DNA of 36,550 bases from an uncultured Oscillospiraceae bacterium (GTDB taxonomy: Bacteria > Bacillota > Clostridia > Oscillospirales > Oscillospiraceae), in contig CANPYX010000026.1 in the NCBI GenBank assembly GCA_947588955.1, positions 1 to 36,550 of the forward strand, read 5' to 3'. The translations under genes and the position numbers were made by a program. Below are positions 189 to 14,829 of this stretch, piece after piece. Under the pieces are notes generated by a model. The model did no database searches, had not been told where the DNA came from, and was given only the letters and a program-made list of their open reading frames with translations. Position 1 is the stretch's first letter. Each line of letters opens with the position of its first letter.

Positions 189-2033
189 TCACTGTGACAA
201 AAGCTCCATCATGCCGGCGGCGTCCATTCCGCCGGGAACAGCGAGGCGCGGGAGGGCATAAAGCGACTGGGGAAGCCCGGCTACAACGGTGCTTACGCCC
301 GATCTCACGGAGACCGTTGCCGCTGCGCCGCTTTCGGTCAGGGCATATTCCGAAAACACGTCGTACTTGCCGTTCGGGTAGGTGAACACGCGGGCGTCAA
401 GCCCAAGAGCGGAGCTTATCTGCTCCCTCGATTTTAGGTAGTCCGCTGTGAGGGTTTCAAGATATTCCTCCACGCCCTCGCCCTTCTTTCTCAAAACGCC
501 ATCGCGGGCGTCCTCGCCGTCAACAATCTCCGCCTGGTGCATGTCAAAGGAGTGGGACTGTATGTCCAGCACTCCCCGCTCAACGTAAGGCGCCGCGTCC
601 TCAAGGGCGAAGTGGGGCGTCATGGGATAGCCTGTGTCCTTGTAGGTGTCCTTCCCCACGGAAACGCCGATCACCGACACCGTTGCGCAAAGCCCCAGCT
701 CCTCCAAAATAGGCGCCGCGAGCTCAAGGTTGTCGGCGTAGCCGTCGTCAACGGAGATCAGAACCGGTTTTTCCGGCAGCGGCGTGCCGCGGTACACAAA
801 ATCTATGAGGTCCGAGTAGAAAACGGCGTTGTATCCCGCCGCCTTCAGCGCCTCCATCTGCCCGCGGAAGTCGGATATCAGCGCCGTCACGTCCGTGACC
901 TTTTCCGGGTCGTCGGTGAAGGAGTGGTACATCAGTATGGGCACCCTCTCCTGTGGAATCCGCTCCTCCGGACCGGAGGCAAGAAGGCGCGCGTTTCTTT
1001 GGGCAAGCTGAGATACGTTTTCCTCCGTCACATAAACTCCGAAATCCTCCGGCGCCCACACGTCCTCATCTCCGAATATCCGCGCCTCCGCCATAACGCC
1101 CACACAGTTGCGAAAATGCGTGGAATCGTAAAAGTACCGCGGCTCAAAGCTCACCGAGCTCATGGAGAAATCCCAAAACGGCGTCACCTCCGCCAGGGCG
1201 CGGTAAAACCTGTCCGCGTCCTGGGGGTCAACGCCCCGCATATAGTCGGAATAGACGGGACCGCATACCACGGTGAGGTTTACGCCCGCTTCCTCGCAAA
1301 GCTTTTTTATTCTCCCCACGCTCTCCATTGTGCTGTCAATGCTTGTGAGGGCTATATCATACGTGGGGTAGTCGGCGAAATCCGCGTAAGCCTCGCGGGA
1401 GACGTAATCCTCCAAGGAGTCTATCGCCTCCACGTCCCGCTCCCGCTTGTCGTAAGCTCCCGTGCCGAGGTCAAAGGCGTCATAGCCCCTGGCGAAATAT
1501 TCGTCATTTAACCGGTTCATAACCTTGTCAATGGCGTACTGCGGATTCAGAAACAGGTACTTGAGATAGAAGCCGAGTTTCGACCCTCCCGTCACGTCCG
1601 GGTGCATACAGTTGGTCAGGTTGTCCTCCCCCACGTCATAGTGCGCTCCGTTGTCGATGTACACGTTCAAAAAGATATTTTTTACGGTGTAGCTCCCAAT
1701 GAGCCGGCGGGCAAAGTTCTCCACGTCCAGCATGTCCGCGCCGTAGGTGAACATATTGTAAAAATCCGCGCCCATGTACCCGTTGAGCTCCTCCACCGGA
1801 AAGGAGCTTGTGGATGAGCAGCCCAGGATGTAGGAGTCGTATTCGTCGTGGTGTCGCTCAATATACTCCGTCTTTCCGACGCGCGGGTTCATGGACTGGC
1901 TGTACGCGTCCCAGTGGAATATAACGTCCCCGAACACGCCGTAGGGATCGATGAGCACGTTGCCGAGAAGGAGCAGCAGCGCCAGAAGCGCCACTGTGCC
2001 GGCAAAGACGGCAAGCCATTTTTTCGAGTTCAA
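189..2033 (-). CDS. Membrane-anchored SGNH-like / NodB polysaccharide deacetylase fusion
   Basis: The 614-residue protein starts at TTG; no in-frame ATG fits, and GGGAGGG lies about 8 nt upstream. Residues 7-28 are a hydrophobic anchor, which puts the rest outside the cell. Residues about 65-325 look like a DltD/DUF1574-type SGNH hydrolase: GCSSTS near 71-76 and a DSTHF element near 303-307 in the place of the usual D-x-x-H. Residues about 363-614 are a NodB deacetylase with ILMYHSF (366-372), SVDDGY (427-432, standing for TFDDG) and SHSFDMH (493-499), so the metal and catalytic residues are kept. It is the last gene of the dlt-like operon, where dltD would sit. By inference the SGNH half handles acyl transfer or hydrolysis and the NodB half deacetylates a surface glycan. 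The domain calls are firm; the substrate is unknown. Confidence 0.8.
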   Translation of the reverse strand: MNSKKWLAVFAGTVALLALLLLLGNVLIDPYGVFGDVIFHWDAYSQSMNPRVGKTEYIERHHDEYDSYILGCSSTSSFPVEELNGYMGADFYNMFTYGADMLDVENFARRLIGSYTVKNIFLNVYIDNGAHYDVGEDNLTNCMHPDVTGGSKLGFYLKYLFLNPQYAIDKVMNRLNDEYFARGYDAFDLGTGAYDKRERDVEAIDSLEDYVSREAYADFADYPTYDIALTSIDSTMESVGRIKKLCEEAGVNLTVVCGPVYSDYMRGVDPQDADRFYRALAEVTPFWDFSMSSVSFEPRYFYDSTHFRNCVGVMAEARIFGDEDVWAPEDFGVYVTEENVSQLAQRNARLLASGPEERIPQERVPILMYHSFTDDPEKVTDVTALISDFRGQMEALKAAGYNAVFYSDLIDFVYRGTPLPEKPVLISVDDGYADNLELAAPILEELGLCATVSVIGVSVGKDTYKDTGYPMTPHFALEDAAPYVERGVLDIQSHSFDMHQAEIVDGEDARDGVLRKKGEGVEEYLETLTADYLKSREQISSALGLDARVFTYPNGKYDVFSEYALTESGAAATVSVRSGVSTVVAGLPQSLYALPRLAVPGGMDAAGMMELLSQ

Positions 2034-2048
2034 ATCGCCGCCCTCCCC

Positions 2049-3605
2049 TCAGATACGCCCATAGATAAAATCCGCGGTCCCGCCGTTGCCTGTGAGTATG
2101 CCGAAAAACAATATGACCGCCAGCGGCACGAGTATCCCCATCCACTGGACAAAAAAGCCGCGTTTTGCAAGGCTTTGGCGTATCCTGACGCCCCGCTCCT
2201 CAAGCGCCTCCGCGCCCACCACCGCGCAGCACCCCAGGGCTACGACGGCGATGTCGGCGGCTCCCACGCCAAGCCCCGCAAGGCCGGAGGGCAGTGCGCT
2301 TATACGGAAGTCCAGGAACGTCTGCCTGAGCATTATAAACGACATCTTTAGCCATGGGGCGCGGGTGAGGTATCTGCCGAAAAACACGATAACCGCCGTG
2401 CGGACCATGCAAAAGCCCCTGTAAAGCGGGCTTTTGTCGTTTATTCGCAGCGCCCCCTTCAACCTGCCGTATGTGGGGGCCAAAAGTATCGAGGCTGTGA
2501 TTATGCCGCCGTTATATAGCCCGTAGGCAAGGTATGTGTAGTTCGCCCCGTGCCATATGCCGATTATGAAGTAAACTATAAAGGTCGCAAGGGACGTGGG
2601 CAGTATGCGCCCCACCGTCCCGCCAAGACGCTTGCGCGAGAACCTCCCCAGCGCGGCAAAGGGCTTTGAGAGGCTCAGCGGATAAAATACGTAATCCTTC
2701 ATCCACGCGCCCAGCGTCATGTGCCAGCGCCGCCAAAATTCCGCCAGGGACACGGAAAAAAGCGGGCGGCGGAAGTTCTCCGCCATATCTATGCCAAAAA
2801 GCCGCGCCGTGCCGCGGACGATGTCTATTCCGCCGGAGAAGTCGGCATACAGCTCCACGGTGTACATCAGCACCGCGAATGCCACCACGCTCCCCGGATA
2901 GGCGCCGCCGTTGGCGTAAACCGGCGCCACGGCGACCGACGCCCTGCCGGCAATGACCAGCTTTTTAAAATATCCCCACATCATCAGCTGTATCCCGTCC
3001 CGCAGGTTGTCCGTGTCAAGGTCATGCCCCTCCATGAGCTGCGGCTGCAAACGGCCGAACCTGTCAATGGGCCCCTGGACCATCTGGGGGAAGAAGGATA
3101 CAAAGAGGAAGTATTTGAAAAAATTCCGCTCCGCCGAAACGCTGCCTCTGGAGACATCCACCACATAGCCGACGGACTGGAATATGTAAAACGAAATTCC
3201 CATGGGCAGCAGGAGCCCAAATGTGGGCAGAGCAATACCCGTCCCGGCGGAGATCGCCTCGGCGGTGAAGTCCCAGTATTTTATTACAAAAAGCATACCG
3301 AAGTTGACGACGCACACAGCGGCGACGATGAGGTGCCGCCTGCGGTCAAAGATGCCCCGGCTCTCGCGCCTTTTCTCCTCCGGCATGGCGCGGCGGTCGC
3401 TGTTCAGCTTCCCCAGGGCTGCGCCGGCAAGGTACGTGCTCACCGCTGTCACGGCGAGGTATCCCATGACGGAAACGCCGCCTTGGGCGTAAAACACCAC
3501 CCCCGCCGCCAAAAGCGCCCACCAACGGCGCTTTTTCGGCAGGATATAATACACCGCGACGGCAACCGCCGCAAACAGCAGGAAGCTCCAGGAGGTCAGG
3601 GACAT
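2049..3605 (-). CDS. MBOAT membrane acyltransferase, DltB/AlgI type
   Basis: This 518-residue polytopic protein belongs to the membrane-bound O-acyltransferase family, which passes acyl groups from a carrier protein or CoA across the membrane to a surface polymer. The hallmarks are ISFYIFQSVGYVVD, the FWRRWHMTLGAWMKDYVFYPL region, and IIGIWHGANYTYLAYG with the expected active-site histidine (WHG). Length and about 11 hydrophobic segments fit DltB/AlgI proteins. Its ATG overlaps the stop of the carrier-protein gene by one base (TAATG), implying translational coupling. The next gene starts 15 nt after its stop. In this operon it is the natural partner that takes the aminoacyl or acyl group from the 3605-3832 carrier protein. 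Confidence 0.88.
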   Translation of the reverse strand: MSLTSWSFLLFAAVAVAVYYILPKKRRWWALLAAGVVFYAQGGVSVMGYLAVTAVSTYLAGAALGKLNSDRRAMPEEKRRESRGIFDRRRHLIVAAVCVVNFGMLFVIKYWDFTAEAISAGTGIALPTFGLLLPMGISFYIFQSVGYVVDVSRGSVSAERNFFKYFLFVSFFPQMVQGPIDRFGRLQPQLMEGHDLDTDNLRDGIQLMMWGYFKKLVIAGRASVAVAPVYANGGAYPGSVVAFAVLMYTVELYADFSGGIDIVRGTARLFGIDMAENFRRPLFSVSLAEFWRRWHMTLGAWMKDYVFYPLSLSKPFAALGRFSRKRLGGTVGRILPTSLATFIVYFIIGIWHGANYTYLAYGLYNGGIITASILLAPTYGRLKGALRINDKSPLYRGFCMVRTAVIVFFGRYLTRAPWLKMSFIMLRQTFLDFRISALPSGLAGLGVGAADIAVVALGCCAVVGAEALEERGVRIRQSLAKRGFFVQWMGILVPLAVILFFGILTGNGGTADFIYGRI

Positions 3606-3832
3606 TATCTCTCCCCCGCCCGCCGCACAAGTTCATAGATGGTCTCGGCGCTCCGGAAGTTCTCAGGCGTCAGGTCGTCCACGTCGATCCTCACGCCGTA
3701 GACCGCCATGAGCTCCGTGACGATCATCACAATATCAAGACTCGTTATAAGCCCGTCGTCAACCAGATCGGTCTCCGAGGCGAAGTCAATGCCGGGGCAT
3801 ACGCCGCTGAGTGTCTCAATAAGCTTGTCCAT
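3605..3832 (-). CDS. Acyl/peptidyl carrier protein, DltC-like
   Basis: A 75-residue acidic, helical protein of carrier-protein size. The DDGLITSLDIVMIV segment holds the predicted phosphopantetheine Ser31 in an SLD context. It would be loaded by the AMP-forming ligase at 4657-6177 and would present the thioester to the MBOAT protein. The ribosome binding site AAAGGGG overlaps the end of the GNAT gene, 4 nt away. Its stop overlaps the MBOAT start. The sequence is closer to generic DltC/ACP proteins than to fatty-acid ACP (no DSLD with the usual flanks), so a dedicated role in the operon is likely. Confidence 0.85.
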   Translation of the reverse strand: MDKLIETLSGVCPGIDFASETDLVDDGLITSLDIVMIVTELMAVYGVRIDVDDLTPENFRSAETIYELVRRAGER

Positions 3833-3836
3833 ATGG

Positions 3837-4679
3837 TCAAACCCCTTTCAAAAATACAATGGAATACCGCCCGTCCGGGGCGAATCCGCGGCTTTTGTAA
3901 GCCGCCATCGCGGGCGCGTTTTCCGCCCCCGTCCAAACCGAGGTCCTGAGACCCGGCGTGATTTGCAAAAAGCCGTCAATGAGCCTTTCCGAAAGCCCGC
4001 GCCCTCGAAACGGCGCGTCCACCGCCAGGTGGCGTATCTCCGCCTGCCTGCCGGTGATTTTAAAGCGCAAAATGCCGGCGATTTCGCCGTCCTCCCGCAC
4101 AGTCAGGACCCTGCCGGAGGATATGTCCGACGAAAGCTCCGCCTCACCCGGCAGGCAGCCGGTAAGCGGGGAGAAGCAATTTTGAAGTATCTCTGAGACC
4201 CTTTTTACCCCCTCTCGGACCCCATTCTGACCCCATTCGGGGGGTATCCGGACCCCTTTCGGACCCTGTTCTGGGGGTGTTTGGACCCCTTTCGGACCAC
4301 GTTTGGGGGGTGTTTGGACCACATTGGGGGCAGCTTTGGCGGCGTTGGGAGCACGTGTAAGGCGCAGCCGGCGGAGCGCCGGGACAAACCCCGCGGAGGT
4401 GAAGGCGTCGGTCAGCCGGCGGCTGTCGGCGCCGGGGGCGAATACCGCCTCGGAGACGACGGCGCCGGATATTTCCGGCAGCTCCGGGGCGTTCATGAGG
4501 AAGGTCAGCAGCCTGAAGCCGTCGCGTTTGCGGAAAATAAACAGCCCGGTCCGCGTCTCCAGAAGCTCAAGCTCCTCGCCCCTCAGCGCCTCCGGCGAAG
4601 CCAAATTTGTCATTACCCCCGGTCGGAGGTGCGCCGGAATGAGGGCAGCCGCCTCCTCAAAGCCTGCGGGATTTGTCAT
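3837..4679 (-). CDS. Two-part GNAT acetyltransferase with an 11-residue repeat linker
   Basis: 280 residues. An ATG at 4685 is also possible, but 4679 has the better spacing (9 nt) from GGAGGG at 4689-4694. The gene overlaps the end of the ligase gene by 23 nt. The C-terminal part is a GNAT acetyltransferase: RHLAVDAPFRGRGLSERL is the acetyl-CoA binding motif A, followed by a VWTGAENAPAMAAYKSRGF motif-B segment. The N-terminal 120 residues are poorly recognisable and may be a degenerate second GNAT lobe. Between them lies a Pro/Gly-rich linker of 11-residue repeats (GPKGVQTPPEQ, GPKGVRIPPEW and similar), encoded by a 33-bp tandem repeat. Its place between the ligase and the carrier protein suggests it acetylates the activated amino acid or polymer, but that is inference. 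Confidence 0.78.
   Translation of the reverse strand: MTNPAGFEEAAALIPAHLRPGVMTNLASPEALRGEELELLETRTGLFIFRKRDGFRLLTFLMNAPELPEISGAVVSEAVFAPGADSRRLTDAFTSAGFVPALRRLRLTRAPNAAKAAPNVVQTPPKRGPKGVQTPPEQGPKGVRIPPEWGQNGVREGVKRVSEILQNCFSPLTGCLPGEAELSSDISSGRVLTVREDGEIAGILRFKITGRQAEIRHLAVDAPFRGRGLSERLIDGFLQITPGLRTSVWTGAENAPAMAAYKSRGFAPDGRYSIVFLKGV
4217..4330. repeat. 33-bp in-frame tandem repeat (minisatellite) inside the GNAT gene
   Basis: Units at 4217-4249, 4250-4282 and 4283-4315 are each 33 bp, with a partial fourth at 4316-4330. Each unit is itself built from 11-bp blocks such as GGACCCCTTTC and GGGGGGTGTTT. As 33 is a multiple of 3, changes in copy number keep the reading frame and only change the length of the inter-domain linker. 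Confidence 0.85.
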
Positions 4680-6177
4680 CCTCATATTCCCTCCGAAGTC
4701 CGGGCCTGTCCGCCTTGCCGTTTTGGTTCCTGGGCAGACTGTCATATTGCCGGTATATGTTTGGAAGCATGTATCCGGGGAGATGCTCACGCAGGCGTGA
4801 GGTTATCTCGCCGGGGGCGGCGTCCCCCTCATAGGCGCAGACGATCCTGTCCGTCTCGCCGTCAAAGAAGCACACGGCGCTCCTGACGCCCTCAACGGCG
4901 CTGAGGGCGGTTTCTATCTCGCCGATCTCTATGCGGTAGCCCAGGTGCTTGATCTGCCCGTCGGCGCGGCTGGAGAAGTAGAGGAGCCCGTCCTCTCCCT
5001 CATGGGCAAGGTCGCCGGTGCGGTAGATGATGTCGCGCCAATACGGGTTCATGGGGTTTTGTATAAACGCGCCCGCCGTCCTTTCGGGGTCGGCAAAGTA
5101 GCCCCTTGCAACGCCGGAGCCACGGACGCAGATCTCGCCTGTCTCGCCCTTTTTTACGGGCTTTAGCTCCGAATCAAGAAGCATTATTTCCATATTTTCA
5201 CAAGCCCTGCCTATGGGTATCTGCTCGCCGTTTGAAAATTCGCGGTCTATGACGTAGTACGTGCAGTCCACCGTCACCTCGGTGGGCCCGTAGAGGTTCA
5301 CAAAAACCGCCTCCGGGAGGGCGCGCCGCCAGACGTTGAGGTCCCTGGCGTAAAGCGTCTCGCCGCCGAGTATTACCTTTTTCACCGACTTGGGGACGGC
5401 GCGGTCCAGTATCCCCGACGACGCCGTCATGGAAAAGGCGGAGGTGGACCAGATGAGGGTGGTGACGCTCCGCGCGGAAATCTCCTCCACCAGGAGCTTT
5501 GGGAACATGAAGCATTTTCGCGGGATGATGTGGGCTGTGGCGCCGCATTTTATAGTGAGCCACAAATCCTTCACCGACAGGTCAAAGTAAAACGGCGCCT
5601 GATTGCCCATCACATCTTTTTCCGTAATATCCAGCGTAGGCGCCATCCATTCCAAAAAGTCTATGAGCGCCCTATGGGGTATAACTATGCCCTTGGGCTC
5701 CCCCGTGGAGCCGGAGGTGAATATCATGTAGACAGGGTCCAGATCCAGGACCCTTTCACGGCGGGCGGCAAGACCTTGTGGGTCGGGCTCGGCATCCGGC
5801 AGCGCGGATATGGGCACGGCGTCAAAGGGAAGCCCCTCCGCGTCCTTCTCGCTTTCGCATAGTATCGCCTCTGGCGACAGGCGGAGGAGGATATTTTCAA
5901 GCCGTTTTTTCGGCATTTTCCTGTCCAGCGGAACATAAAAGCACCCGGCGGCAAGCACGCCCATAAAGGCGCGCACCGCGTCAACGCTCCGTTCGCACAG
6001 CACCGCCACGGGTCTTGCCGCGCGGCAGCCCATGCCCGCAAGGGCGGAACCGATTTTAATTGCCCCGCTCTCCAACTCGCCGAAAGTGACGCCCTCGCCG
6101 CCCTCGGCAAACGCGAGCTTGTCCGAAAAGCGCCCCGCGGAGGCGGAGAGATATTCAAAAGCGTTTTTGATATACAT
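4657..6177 (-). CDS. AMP-forming amino-acid ligase, DltA-like adenylation enzyme
   Basis: 506 residues, the usual DltA length, and the first gene of the operon. It should adenylate an amino (or other) acid and load it on the carrier protein. Core motifs are complete: FTSGSTGEPKG (A3, 153-163), FYFDLSVKDL (A4, 196-205, with the amine-binding Asp199), NLYGPTEVT (A5, 294-302), YRTGDLA (A7, 385-391) and the catalytic lysine in NQNGKADR (A10, K488). The NQAPFYFDLSV stretch matches DltA closely. However, the LGGETL segment (270-275) has Gly where DltA enzymes carry the FCGE cysteine linked to D-alanine selectivity, so the substrate may not be D-Ala. The ribosome binding site is weak (GGCGGTAGAAGT). 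Confidence 0.85.
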   Translation of the reverse strand: MYIKNAFEYLSASAGRFSDKLAFAEGGEGVTFGELESGAIKIGSALAGMGCRAARPVAVLCERSVDAVRAFMGVLAAGCFYVPLDRKMPKKRLENILLRLSPEAILCESEKDAEGLPFDAVPISALPDAEPDPQGLAARRERVLDLDPVYMIFTSGSTGEPKGIVIPHRALIDFLEWMAPTLDITEKDVMGNQAPFYFDLSVKDLWLTIKCGATAHIIPRKCFMFPKLLVEEISARSVTTLIWSTSAFSMTASSGILDRAVPKSVKKVILGGETLYARDLNVWRRALPEAVFVNLYGPTEVTVDCTYYVIDREFSNGEQIPIGRACENMEIMLLDSELKPVKKGETGEICVRGSGVARGYFADPERTAGAFIQNPMNPYWRDIIYRTGDLAHEGEDGLLYFSSRADGQIKHLGYRIEIGEIETALSAVEGVRSAVCFFDGETDRIVCAYEGDAAPGEITSRLREHLPGYMLPNIYRQYDSLPRNQNGKADRPGLRREYEDDKSRRL

Positions 6178-6742: not shown

Positions 6743-7732
6743 ATGGCGAAATCATCGGGGCAAAAGCTGAAAATACTTTACATTATGGACTATCTTTTGA
6801 GGAACACCGACGAGGAACACCCGGCGTCGCTGGCGGAGCTGACGGCGTACCTGGAAAAGCAGGAGATCTCCGTCCGGCGAAAGACGCTCTACGATGACAT
6901 TGACACCCTCCGCGCCTTCGGGATGGACATAATCATGACCAACACCGGGCGCAACTACGGCTACTACGTGGCGAGCCGGGACTTTGAACTGCCGGAGCTG
7001 AAGCTTTTGGTGGACAGCGTACAGGCGTCGAAATTTATAACGCAGAAAAAGACGGTGTCGCTCATAGGGAAGATAGAGAAGCTAACCAGCGTCCACCGGG
7101 CGAAGGCGCTCCAGGGGCAGGTGTTTGTGAAAAACAGGATAAAGACCATGAACGAGTCCATCTATTACAACGTGGACGAGCTTCACGGGGCGATAGCCGA
7201 CAGGGTGAAGATACGCTTTAAATATTTTGAGTTCACCCCCGACAAGCAGCGCCGCTTCCGCCGGAACGGGGATTGGTACGTGGCGAGTCCCTACGCCCTC
7301 ACCTGGGACGACGAGAATTACTACCTTGTGGCATACGACTCGGACGCCGGGCACATAAAGCACTACCGGGTGGACAAGATGGCGAGCATATCCGCCATTG
7401 CCGAGCCCAGAGACGGGGAGGACGCCTTCAACGCGACGGACATGGGGGCTTACACCCGCAGTGTGTTCGGGATGTTCGCCGGAGAGCCGGAGACGGTGCT
7501 GATGCGCTTTGAAAATCACCTTGCGGGGGCGGTCATTGACAGGCTGGGGCAGGAGGTCATGACCATACCCGACGGGTCGGACCACTTCACCGTCTCGGCG
7601 AGGGTGGTGCCGAGCCCGCAATTTTTCGCCTGGGTCTTCGGCTTCGGCGCCGGCGCGCAGATACTCGGCCCCGCCGGTGTGCGGGAGAAGATGTCGGCGC
7701 AGCTGCGGGCCGCGGCGGAGCTCTATTCGTGA
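6743..7732 (+). CDS. HTH-WYL domain transcriptional regulator
   Basis: 329 residues. The N-terminal 70 residues are a winged helix of the HTH_11/DeoR kind (LKILYIMDYLL, then VRRKTLYDDIDTLRAFGMDI as the recognition region). Residues about 140-230 are a WYL domain (RVKIRFKYFEF, WYVASPYALTWDDENYYLVAYD), which commonly senses a small ligand or nucleic acid. A WCX-type C-terminal extension ends in GVREKMSAQLRAAAELY. It is divergent from the dlt-like operon and upstream of a small membrane/esterase pair with its own promoter, so it may regulate either neighbour. The palindrome at 6221-6248 is one candidate operator. Confidence 0.85.
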   Translation: MAKSSGQKLKILYIMDYLLRNTDEEHPASLAELTAYLEKQEISVRRKTLYDDIDTLRAFGMDIIMTNTGRNYGYYVASRDFELPELKLLVDSVQASKFITQKKTVSLIGKIEKLTSVHRAKALQGQVFVKNRIKTMNESIYYNVDELHGAIADRVKIRFKYFEFTPDKQRRFRRNGDWYVASPYALTWDDENYYLVAYDSDAGHIKHYRVDKMASISAIAEPRDGEDAFNATDMGAYTRSVFGMFAGEPETVLMRFENHLAGAVIDRLGQEVMTIPDGSDHFTVSARVVPSPQFFAWVFGFGAGAQILGPAGVREKMSAQLRAAAELYS

Positions 7733-7792: not shown

Positions 7793-8299
7793 ATGGAGCT
7801 CAAGGCTGAAAATACTTTTACCGTCACTGAGGAGCTTTCAAGGGAGGGGACGATGTGCCTGATGAAGGACGACTACTTCCCCACGGTGAAGAAGCTTTTG
7901 ATCGCCGCCGGGGTAGCGTGGGTGCTGCTGGTTGGCGCGACGGTATGGCGCGGGAGCTGGCTGATGGCTATTGCCCCCACGGTGGTGGTGATATTCCTGG
8001 CGGTGTGGCTGCTGGTGATGAACCCGAGGAGCCGCGCCAAAAGGAACTGGAAGGCGCTTCGCGCCAGGCTGAACGACGACCTTAAACGCACCACCCGCTT
8101 TTACGAGGACAGGCTGGAGGTGGAGAGCGCCGGGTCACAGCTCATTGTAAATTACGAGGATATCCGGCGCGTGCTGGAGAGCGAGCACCTGCTCATACTT
8201 ATAAATGACGAGAAGATGGGTGTAATGGCGGCGCTGGACGGCTTCACACTGGGTGACAAGGAGACGGTACTGGAGCTTATCAAGGAGTGGACCAGATGA
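7793..8299 (+). CDS. YcxB-like small membrane protein
   Basis: 168 residues with the layout of the YcxB family. A short N-terminal strand region is followed by two close transmembrane segments (about 34-54 and 56-76), and then a soluble C-terminal domain with RFYEDRLEVESAGSQLIVNYEDI, a YcxB/PH-like strand pattern. Family members have no assigned biochemical role. A strong AAAGGAGG ribosome binding site lies 7 nt before the ATG. Its TGA overlaps the ATG of the esterase gene (ATGA), so the two proteins are probably made together. Confidence 0.7.
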   Translation: MELKAENTFTVTEELSREGTMCLMKDDYFPTVKKLLIAAGVAWVLLVGATVWRGSWLMAIAPTVVVIFLAVWLLVMNPRSRAKRNWKALRARLNDDLKRTTRFYEDRLEVESAGSQLIVNYEDIRRVLESEHLLILINDEKMGVMAALDGFTLGDKETVLELIKEWTR

Positions 8300-9390
8300 A
8301 CGGACTTAAAAGCTATTCGCCCCTGGACGAAAGGGCGCTCATACACGGCAGGACCCTGAGGCGTGAGCCGCTGGAGCTCTACTGGACCGGTTCGTCATTG
8401 GAGCTGGAGACCGACTCCGGGGAGCTTTGGGTGGAGCTGGAGTGCCGTGGAGGGTTTGTCCCCGGTATCCGCGTGGAGCTGGATGGCGCGACAGTGGCGC
8501 GGGTGCTGCCGGATACCGGTATAAGTCGGCTCTGCGCGTTTCGGGGCATACCCCATGAGAGACGGCGCGTCACCGTTTACCGTGAGGGGCAGCCCTGTCA
8601 GGGCGGTCAGGAGGGCAGGACAGCCATACGCGCCATATACGCCGACGGGGAGCTTTATAAGGCGGAGCCACGGAAATACAGGCTTGAGTTCGTGGGCGAC
8701 AGCGTCACCGCCGGCGAGGGGCTGTCGGGACCGGCGAGCCTCACCTCCGGCGGCGCGGCGGTTTACTCAAGCCGCGGGAATTACGCCCTGGAGACGGGGC
8801 GGCTGCTGGGCGCCGACGTGAATATAGTAGCCATGAGCGGATGGGGCGCGGCGGCGTCCTGGGACAACAACCCGGAGAACGTGACGCCGCGGATATATCA
8901 TCAAATCTGCGGCGCTCTGGAGGGCGGCGCGGAGCAGGGGGCATGGGACTTCGCCTCCTGGCGCCCCGACGCCATTATCGTACACCTGGGCAACAACGAC
9001 TTTTTCGCCCTGGACGAGCCGGGACACACGGACCCCGCCACGGGGAAGGTCACAAAGCTCCGGCGCGGCGCCGACGGCCTGCCGGACAGGGAGACTGCCG
9101 GCTTCTTCAAGGGCGCTGTCTACGGCTTTTTGAAAAAGGCGCGCTCCCTGAACCCGGATCCCCACATCGTCTGGGCATATGGCGTTTTCAACGACCTGTG
9201 GACGCCGTACATTCTTGAGGCGATGGACGGATACTCCCGTGACACCGGCGATGAAAACGTGAGCTTCGCCGCCCTCCCCCGCCGGCGGGACGAATATACC
9301 GGCTCCAACGGTCACCCCGGCGTACTTGACCACGCGGAGATGGCAAAGGCGCTGACGGAGCATCTGAGGCGGGTGCTGAATATAGGCTGA
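8296..9390 (+). CDS. SGNH/GDSL carbohydrate esterase, CE2-like
   Basis: 364 residues from ATG 8296. An upstream GTG at 8287 lies inside the AAGGAG ribosome binding site and is less likely. The N-terminal about 115 residues are beta-rich, like the jelly-roll domain of CE2 acetyl esterases. The SGNH domain follows, with EFVGDSVTAGEG (nucleophile Ser136), HLGNNDFF carrying the conserved Asn, and GHPGVLDHAEMA with the C-terminal His. CE2 enzymes remove acetyl groups from xylo- and manno-oligosaccharides. No signal peptide is visible, so the protein is probably cytoplasmic and acts on imported oligosaccharides. It is translationally coupled to the YcxB-like gene. Confidence 0.82.
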   Translation: MNGLKSYSPLDERALIHGRTLRREPLELYWTGSSLELETDSGELWVELECRGGFVPGIRVELDGATVARVLPDTGISRLCAFRGIPHERRRVTVYREGQPCQGGQEGRTAIRAIYADGELYKAEPRKYRLEFVGDSVTAGEGLSGPASLTSGGAAVYSSRGNYALETGRLLGADVNIVAMSGWGAAASWDNNPENVTPRIYHQICGALEGGAEQGAWDFASWRPDAIIVHLGNNDFFALDEPGHTDPATGKVTKLRRGADGLPDRETAGFFKGAVYGFLKKARSLNPDPHIVWAYGVFNDLWTPYILEAMDGYSRDTGDENVSFAALPRRRDEYTGSNGHPGVLDHAEMAKALTEHLRRVLNIG

Positions 9391-13888: not shown

Positions 13889-14750
13889 TCTGCCCCTCCT
13901 CACGCTCAAAGGGCTGCTTGCCCAGGCAGTTGGCGGTGAGGTACGTATGGTTCCCCTGGCGCATCCAGCGGGCGATGGACAAAAGAGCGACAAGTCCCCC
14001 GTCCTCCATATAGGCGTAGGCGCTCACCGGCCCGTCAGGGAGGGTGATCTCCTGCCGGACCATCTGACCTGTCGCCTCAGTCAGCGCCTCTAAGATCCGC
14101 TCCGCCTCCTCCACGGTGAGGCCGGTTCCCTTGGCGACTGCCGCCGGGACGTAGTAGCTGTCCCTGTTCCGACAGAAGTACCGAAGCGTCTCCATGGCGC
14201 CGGGCATGGAGAGGGCTCTGAACAGTACGCGGTATTCGTCATCGGTCAGAAAGTATCGCTCGTACCCCTCACGGGGCTTTGGGAACACCCCCATATAGGA
14301 ATAGTCCTCCGCCCCCACGCCCATGATATAGCCGCTGTCTATGCCCAGGGTGACGCGCATAAGGCCAAGCGTCTTGTTCTCCGCCTCCTGCGGATAGCCG
14401 ATACGCGGCATATTGAGCATGAGATCACTGCTGGTCCCGTATATGGCGCCGTCCCATAAAAGGCGGTTGATCCTTGTCAGCCGCTCGCTCTCCGGAAGCG
14501 AACGCAGCCAGCAGAGAAAGGCGGTCTCCATATCCTGCACCTGACCGCCCTCCCTGCCAAAGAGGGCGTCCACCGTCACCCCCAGCCTGTCCGCCACGGC
14601 GGGCAGAAGGGACACGTCCGGCGCGCCGCCGTTCTCCCATTGGCTCACCGCCTGGGTGCTGACGCCCACCGCCTCGCCCAGCTCCTTTTGGGTCATGCCC
14701 GCGCGCTTGCGGAATTTTTGTATTTGAAGCCCTATGATCTCTATATCCAT
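13875..14750 (-). CDS. XRE-family regulator with C-terminal sensor-like domain
   Basis: 291 residues. Residues 5-62 are a Cro/cI helix-turn-helix (IQKFRKRAGMTQKELGEAVGVS, then TQAVSQWENGGAPDVSLLPAVADRLGV). The remaining about 220 residues include a second helical, winged-helix-like segment (AVAKGTGLTVEEAERILEALTEA) and no enzyme motif. Such proteins usually sense a small molecule. It has a perfect AGGAGG 5 nt before the ATG and its own promoter with a palindrome over the -35. The exporter gene starts inside its 3' end. Confidence 0.85.
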   Translation of the reverse strand: MDIEIIGLQIQKFRKRAGMTQKELGEAVGVSTQAVSQWENGGAPDVSLLPAVADRLGVTVDALFGREGGQVQDMETAFLCWLRSLPESERLTRINRLLWDGAIYGTSSDLMLNMPRIGYPQEAENKTLGLMRVTLGIDSGYIMGVGAEDYSYMGVFPKPREGYERYFLTDDEYRVLFRALSMPGAMETLRYFCRNRDSYYVPAAVAKGTGLTVEEAERILEALTEATGQMVRQEITLPDGPVSAYAYMEDGGLVALLSIARWMRQGNHTYLTANCLGKQPFEREEGQNEKT

Positions 14751-14799
14751 ATTTTCCTCCTAATACTAATGAAGATTTGCCTGTACAAGCCACGCTTTA

Positions 14800-14829
14800 T
14801 TTATAGCTCATTTGCCGCTTGAATTCAAG
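14800..14829 (-). promoter_or_regulatory. Promoter and palindromic operator of the XRE/ABC operon
   Basis: On the minus strand, TTGAAT (14823-14828), a 17-bp spacer and TATAAA (14800-14805). The -35 lies inside the perfect 12-bp palindrome CTTGAATTCAAG (14818-14829), a plausible autoregulatory site for the XRE protein. Confidence 0.6.

Follow-up and report, generated by a model that had tools for sequence, protein, structure and literature searches.

A five-gene cassette ending in an SGNH-NodB fusion protein in an uncultured Oscillospiraceae bacterium: a candidate carrier-fed surface acyltransferase

We analyzed a stretch of 36,550 nucleotides of DNA from an uncultured Oscillospiraceae bacterium (hereafter the window), which forms the start of contig C26 in a draft genome of 2.56 Mb and 58 contigs. 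Five frames lie there head to tail on the minus strand, from position 6177 to position 189, and are predicted to encode an adenylation enzyme (A domain), a GNAT acetyltransferase, a carrier protein, an MBOAT acyltransferase and a protein that joins an SGNH-like half to a NodB half (Table 1). Adjoining genes overlap or sit at most 15 bases apart, and the contig ends 188 bases downstream of the fusion gene. The fusion gene starts with a TTG codon that is preceded by a GGGAGG-like site. Pfam and NCBIfam models name every part of the cassette except the SGNH half of the fusion. A preliminary description of the window had called these five genes, and their positions and families were borne out by the searches, the SGNH half by sequence only.

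Table 1 Predicted features of the cassette in the window.
Feature	Position	Strand	Evidence
Adenylation enzyme (DltA-like A domain, 506 aa)	4657..6177	-	PF00501 E 5e-68; TIGR01733 355 bits, above cut-off
GNAT acetyltransferase with N-terminal extra domain, ~282 aa from ATG 4685	3837..4685	-	PF00583 E 6.5e-11
Tandem repeat, 33-base unit, in frame, 3.4-3.7 copies, Pro-rich linker within GNAT	4215..4339	-	
Acyl/aminoacyl carrier protein, 75 aa, phosphopantetheine Ser in ITSLD	3605..3832	-	PF00550 E 3e-4, barely above cut-off
MBOAT acyltransferase, 518 aa	2049..3605	-	PF03062 E 8e-15, 55.4 bits (cut-off 27)
Codons of FIYGRI, C-terminal putative acyl-shuttle hexapeptide fused to MBOAT	2052..2069	-	MBOAT tail sequence; motif as in the available text of PMC12148441
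SGNH-NodB fusion gene	189..2033	-	PF01522 E 2e-11, residues 419-566
Fusion, SGNH-like acyltransferase half (residues 1-345; Ser73, Asp303, His306), including N-terminal membrane anchor (residues 3-35)	999..2033	-	
Fusion, NodB/PgaB-like de-N-acetylase half, residues 346-614; Asp429, Asp430, His494, His499	192..998	-	

The SGNH-NodB pairing, singled out by the preliminary description, proved to be a conserved unit. We counted 43 loci carrying it (numbered with the prefix L), leaving out a partial copy (L053, in genome G029) and two loci with a diverged SGNH half (L106 and L107), and scored the active-site residues of the 44 fusion proteins that these loci encode (L104 holds two in tandem). The SGNH residues Ser73, Asp303 and His306 were intact in 43 of the 44, the NodB residues Asp429, Asp430, His494 and His499 in 42, and the two sets together in 41, so that both active sites are kept in most lineages. 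The presence of the fusion at 43 loci, 22 of them with the same five-gene order, led us to reject a chance fusion of open reading frames or an assembly artefact. A hydropathy scan detected a hydrophobic stretch at the N terminus (residues 3-35), which we read as the anchor of an extracytoplasmic enzyme, and a second one inside the NodB half (residues 442-460). The NodB half passes PF01522 with 44.3 bits (cut-off 23.1) and matches PgaB, BpsB and related de-N-acetylases of the PDB (E 4e-32 and 8e-27), and the fusion stays under the PgaB equivalog (67.9 of 321.9 bits). We take Asp429 to be the catalytic base and Asp430, His494 and His499 to be the metal ligands, as in the NodB family.

For the SGNH half, an alignment of 16 fusions revealed invariant G-x-S and D-x-x-H motifs. 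A profile of this half matched a set of SGNH partners of MBOAT proteins with a probability of 97.7 (E 2e-12) and a second partner set with a probability of 98.1 (E 7e-14), the first set having been pulled out wholly, and the second by half, by the same profile. The G-x-S and D-x-x-H blocks were aligned in both comparisons, and two unrelated families used as negative controls gave a probability of 0.1 each. The search of the order also returned nine weak matches (L084-L091 and L094). An MBOAT is present in the stretch for eight of these nine, and in six the SGNH-half match lies directly behind it; L088, one of the six, matches the GDSL Pfam at E 2e-6, under the cut-off. When the SGNH half was searched by itself, one of 14 members brushed the GDSL Pfam at E 0.08. 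Taken together, the sequence evidence leans towards an SGNH relative outside the DltD family.

The fusion is sparse but wide in its distribution. Among 60 relatives (own genome included) a full-length match was found in 15, and 14 of these belong to the 34 genomes of the genus; one further genome, G029, has the fusion in two contig pieces. In the order, 295 genomes were searched with the SGNH-half profile; 23 gave a match at E 1e-3, and for 13 of these the match was at E 1e-98 or better. Of 391 genomes in the class, 25 matched the full fusion profile at E 1e-60 (14 at full length, own included, and 11 in the NodB half only), and 4 of 398 genomes of the phylum, again with our own, were matched at E 1e-20. 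A contig scan added a relative in a metagenome-assembled genome of an uncultured Clostridia bacterium (L059). The fusion matched 803 plasmid records, and no record covered 80% of the query at a single place; the eight plasmid matches listed all lie in the NodB half. Five loci with a NodB half only (L054-L058) were considered as split cassettes and rejected, no A-domain, carrier or MBOAT match being present in the stretches fetched.

The genome search proposed by the preliminary description recovered the order A domain, GNAT, carrier, MBOAT and fusion at 22 of the 43 loci. Eighteen of these, including the window, came from the automatic search, two (L150 and L153) from a GNAT profile and two (L167 and L168) from the phylum sample; the count includes L043, in which the contig end cuts the A domain, and L044, in which the MBOAT is spread over two frames. 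The GNAT profile was run on the 244 frames of L150, L153, L097, L051 and L100. It located a GNAT in the gap behind the A domain of L150 (E 4e-25) and L153 (E 3e-30) and none in L097, L051 or L100. L150 is loosely packed, with gaps of ~600 and ~760 bases. Among the remaining loci, L100 has an MBOAT and a fusion and is cut by the contig, L104 has an MBOAT followed by two fusions, and four (L105, L149, L151 and L169, with L151 at a contig end) have a fusion without any partner detected adjoining. Around 12 loci of this amino-acid type, outside the cassette and antisense frames, no family recurs at more than three, so the five genes look self-sufficient; the most recurrent flanking family, MatE-like judging by the copy in the window, is near three of the 12, in flanks of differing length.

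A second type of cassette, absent from the preliminary description, has the order MBOAT, fusion, carrier and FkbH, and was found at 13 of the 43 loci (L045-L050, L052, L101-L103 and L144-L146; fusion and carrier of L146 lie 1.2 kb apart). One of these FkbH proteins, that of L052, exceeds its NCBIfam cut-off (253.9 bits, cut-off 146.65). FkbH domains have been proposed to load glycerate in aeruginosin synthesis (available text of PMC10143770). By analogy with such loading elsewhere, the FkbH-type cassettes probably load glycerate and a glyceryl group is their likely cargo, an acyl group that should carry no N-acetyl. In one clustering, a family that includes a phosphopantetheinyl transferase (identified on L045) is near 7 of 10 FkbH-type loci. 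A gene for a GT2-GtrA fusion was also observed near 8 of 10 (the L045-L050, L052, L101 set). In a separate stretch, L126, an A domain occurs with an FkbH-like frame of 551 aa and two frames that resemble carriers. We built a maximum-likelihood tree of 41 fusions with midpoint root, of which 34 rows could be typed (L097 being counted as amino-acid type). The FkbH type forms one clade (support 100/99), joined by the partnerless L105 and L149, and the operon type changes once among the 34 typed rows, which fits a single exchange of the loader behind one terminal enzyme. The spread of one genus over several clades suggests horizontal transfer.

To what the adenylation enzyme might load, its binding pocket gives an indication. 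By alignment, the pocket code of the window A domain is DLKTIGLVDK, and the same code was read in 9 of the 22 A domains scored, the window included (the truncated A domain of L043 was left out). The third site is Lys in 21 of 22 (Gln in L150), the ninth is Asp in 21 of 22 (Asn in L097), and the sixth is Gly, Ala or Ser in all 22 and Cys in none. Two control DltAs from the order, whose genes adjoin DltD genes, carry Cys at the sixth site and Leu at the ninth, and their third site is Val or Leu. In DltA the methyl group of D-alanine faces Leu, Met and Cys, the Cys shutting out L-alanine (available text of PMC8972799). This lining is replaced by Leu, Lys and Gly in the window A domain, which therefore should not select D-alanine and is predicted to activate another amino acid. 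The window code resembles codes for Glu and Gln, DAQDLGVVDK being given for both in the available text of PMC12283262, and a Glu-like substrate is our guess, one that we would expect to fail more often than it holds. The Lys form DAKDLGVVDK, which we take to be a Glu code, was not found in the literature searched.

The GNAT is present in all 22 five-gene cassettes. Its gene position, and the fact that it accompanies the amino-acid loader almost without exception, suggest that it N-acetylates either the free amino acid or the aminoacyl group once loaded; the substrate is perhaps N-acetylated. The 33-base repeat in the window GNAT is absent from the other 11 GNATs aligned. At the other end of the cassette, the MBOAT tail ends in a putative shuttle motif, a further feature that the preliminary description did not contain. 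Its Tyr is kept in all 38 complete MBOAT tails of the fusion loci (the split MBOAT of L044 was left out of the count); 35 have FxYxx[FIYH] and three, from one clade (L051, L097 and L100), have YVYEN[IV]. According to the available text of PMC12148441 this hexapeptide is an acyl shuttle, which belongs to DltX in the Dlt pathway, where a carrier feeds it, and forms part of the MBOAT itself in pathways described as carrier-free. In the cassette, a dedicated carrier and an MBOAT-fused shuttle motif occur together.

We propose that the cassette encodes a carrier-fed surface O-acyltransferase and that its terminal enzyme removes N-acetyl groups from the acceptor glycan as well, a reading that we hold with roughly even confidence, leaning towards it. 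From the parts, their catalytic residues, their conserved order and the two types of loader, which can be read from the sequences, we infer the following catalytic steps, along with the nature of the amino acid, the linkage and the polymer. The A domain would activate an amino acid other than D-alanine and load it onto the carrier, and the GNAT would N-acetylate the loaded group or the free amino acid. By way of the MBOAT, the acyl group would then cross the membrane and be placed on the Tyr of the MBOAT's FIYGRI tail, from which the SGNH half would accept it on Ser73 and esterify a surface polymer containing N-acetylhexosamine. The NodB half, on the same anchored chain, would strip N-acetyl groups from that polymer. 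The NodB residues are intact in 13 of 13 FkbH-type cassettes, and since the NodB half persists beside two loaders of different chemistry, it more likely targets the acceptor glycan common to both types than the acyl group. The preliminary description had coupled deacetylation with acylation, which remains the likeliest reading. Its sequence of events, in which an amine is exposed and then acylated, stands as one possibility; an O-ester is likelier than an amide because the MBOAT-SGNH machines in the available text of PMC12148441 make O-esters, via Tyr and Ser intermediates. In a further, rather unlikely reading, the fusion would swap acetyl groups: N-acetyls of a surface glycan would be stripped and replaced by the acyl group that the carrier delivers, attached either to the amine thus exposed or to a neighbouring hydroxyl of that sugar, with the exchangeable loader setting its identity (Glu-like or glycerate).

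The preliminary description regarded the genes as a dlt-like operon, and a diverged dlt operon that acquired a deacetylase and a GNAT and makes D-alanine esters on teichoic acid as usual would retain the overall order A, C, B and D-like and explain the strong DltA match of the A domain (E 2e-84). The specific models argue against it. The window A domain reaches 297.9 of the 476 bits needed for the DltA subfamily NF003417, which both control DltAs pass (504.9 and 489.4), and 284.1 of 559.85 bits for the DltA equivalog TIGR01734; the latter miss alone says little because both controls miss the same cut-off (495.4 and 477). The MBOAT attains 158.4 of 375 bits for the DltB equivalog TIGR04091, for which no control DltB was run, the carrier meets the generic PF00550 and gets 19.3 of 68 bits for the DltC model NF003464, and the DltD Pfam PF04914 has no match in the fusion. 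The pocket, with Lys and Gly where the control DltAs have Val or Leu and Cys, also speaks against D-alanine. A scan for frames of 25-89 aa ending in FxYxxF found no separate DltX in the operon, its sole match in the window being at 14640-14822, and the gap between MBOAT and fusion is 15 bases. PF04914 DltD was found in none of the 34 draft genomes of the genus (another point beyond the preliminary description), in 2 of 60 relatives and in 7 of 148 genomes of the class. With several defining features missed, membership in the dlt operons was rejected, and the claim of a dlt variant does not hold in the strict sense. As regards the polymer, the own genome encodes two membrane proteins with an LtaS-like sulfatase fold, scoring far under the LtaS cut-off, which would suit a diverged dlt operon, and no PF04464 (CDP-glycerol polymerase), which would not; on balance we consider that explanation improbable. 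A polyglycerol-phosphate target like lipoteichoic acid is possible. Such a backbone has no N-acetyl group for NodB, so a joint action of both halves needs an N-acetylhexosamine in the polymer. A poly-N-acetylglucosamine target is without direct support, since a search of the own genome for PgaC/IcaA returned one match only, under the cut-off.

Three other explanations concern the division of labour between the halves. The joint presence of GNAT and NodB in 22 cassettes would suit a protecting-group cycle, in which the GNAT acetylates the loaded amino acid inside the cell and NodB removes the acetyl outside after transfer. The intact NodB sites of all 13 FkbH-type cassettes, which are without this A domain and GNAT, and of the GNAT-less L097 weigh against such a cycle, as does the action of PgaB-group NodB enzymes on glycans, and we regard it as the least probable explanation. 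Two active sites on one anchored chain, both intact in 41 of 44 fusions, would equally suit an exchange of acetyl for aminoacyl in which a sugar amine exposed by NodB is itself acylated by the SGNH half, giving an amide. Here the O-esters made by the MBOAT-SGNH pairs in PMC12148441 (available text) stand in the way, together with L104, which keeps the SGNH residues without NodB motifs, and L151, which does the reverse; we give this exchange a small probability, about that of the diverged dlt operon. Finally, the halves could act on different targets and be fused only to share an anchor, with NodB acting, for example, like PplD on the GlcNAc in the linkage unit of a wall polymer. The NodB half indeed matches PDB 6dq3 (E 1e-21), an entry mentioned once in the available text of the PplD paper. 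Nothing points to separate targets, and the fusion with both its sites persists under either type of loader, which makes this explanation unlikely, if a little less so than the preceding ones.

Several observations weigh against the carrier-fed acylation and de-N-acetylation that we propose. The SGNH half alone had no usable match in Pfam or the PDB, and its profile aligned with independently chosen sets in the C-terminal block only: 7 DltDs gave a probability of 88 (E 3e-6, 72 columns) and the SGNH-like genes of second operons gave 73 (E 3e-5, 88 columns). Both tandem paralogues of L104 lost the NodB motifs and the fusion of L151 lost the SGNH triad, which indicates that the halves are separable and that their sites can be lost apart. 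Neither is the set of partners constant, as L097 has A domain, carrier, MBOAT and fusion with no GNAT between A and carrier (its contig begins inside the A domain), and L051 has carrier, MBOAT and fusion with neither A nor GNAT adjoining. Moreover the prediction of the amino acid depends on a 10-residue code, and no polymer synthesis genes were seen recurring beside the 12 amino-acid-type cassettes.

The own genome is rich in possible surface acylation systems. It encodes four further MBOATs (L066-L069), three of which have a neighbour with an AlgX, DHHW or GDSL domain; the neighbour of the L066 MBOAT is a protein of 330 aa with no family match. Some genomes of the genus carry a separate, second dlt-like operon of A domain, carrier and MBOAT without NodB, followed in L121-L125 and L129 by an SGNH-like gene, and the MBOAT tail of L124 is FIYTRF. 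Within the window, a GDSL esterase resembling the acetylxylan esterase AxeC2 (71.5 bits, cut-off 500) is encoded at 8287-9390, and a divergent WYL-domain regulator (6743-7732) stands between it and the cassette. Directly downstream of the fusion gene lies an element of ~100 bases (84-186) with ~20 similar sites in the genome, on both strands and at 75-97% identity, part of which also matches its own reverse complement. At its very start, the contig has 77 bases (1-77) identical (100%) to G000:C9:20561-20637, probably an assembly repeat where the contig broke.

Surface acylation alters charge, biofilm formation and host recognition. If our proposal is true, a genus in which no DltD was found would have a surface polymer both de-N-acetylated and acylated with a group other than alanine, and the cassette would give direct genetic access to the role of each domain. 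The fused enzyme with its exchangeable loading modules looks like a modular kit with which bacteria decorate their surfaces.

The machines in the available text of PMC12148441 split into those with a carrier and DltX (Dlt) and those with acyl-CoA and a fused shuttle (Pat and others). In the cassette the carrier is dedicated and the shuttle motif is nevertheless part of the MBOAT; the terminal enzyme gains a predicted de-N-acetylase, and two alternative loaders occur with it. With dltXABCD the cassette shares an adenylation enzyme, a carrier, an MBOAT and a putative SGNH partner in one operon and a predicted carrier-thioester donor; it differs by a pocket that is not that for D-alanine, by the added GNAT, by a shuttle motif fused to the MBOAT with no DltX gene found in the cassette, and by an SGNH half outside PF04914 that is fused to NodB. 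PatAB, AlgIJ/X, WssHI and CcsHI likewise have an MBOAT with a C-terminal FxYxxF-type motif, and an SGNH partner to which the SGNH-like half would correspond, but use acyl-CoA and are carrier-free in the same source, whereas the cassette has its own carrier and loading enzyme. The NodB signature, with a base Asp and Asp-His-His, is that of PgaB, IcaB and PplD; in the cassette it occupies the C-terminal half of an acyltransferase-like protein and scores far under the PgaB equivalog cut-off. Similarly, the sister cassettes have FkbH and a carrier in common with the glycerate loaders of polyketide and peptide pathways, but place FkbH beside an MBOAT and a surface fusion enzyme and not beside a synthase. 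We found no description of the SGNH-NodB fusion or of the cassette in the open-access papers searched, among which most subscription papers are missing, and the available text of a review of SGNH proteins (PMC9487903) holds no occurrence of NodB or CE4. Each part of the cassette is of a known kind, and its novelty is their combination.

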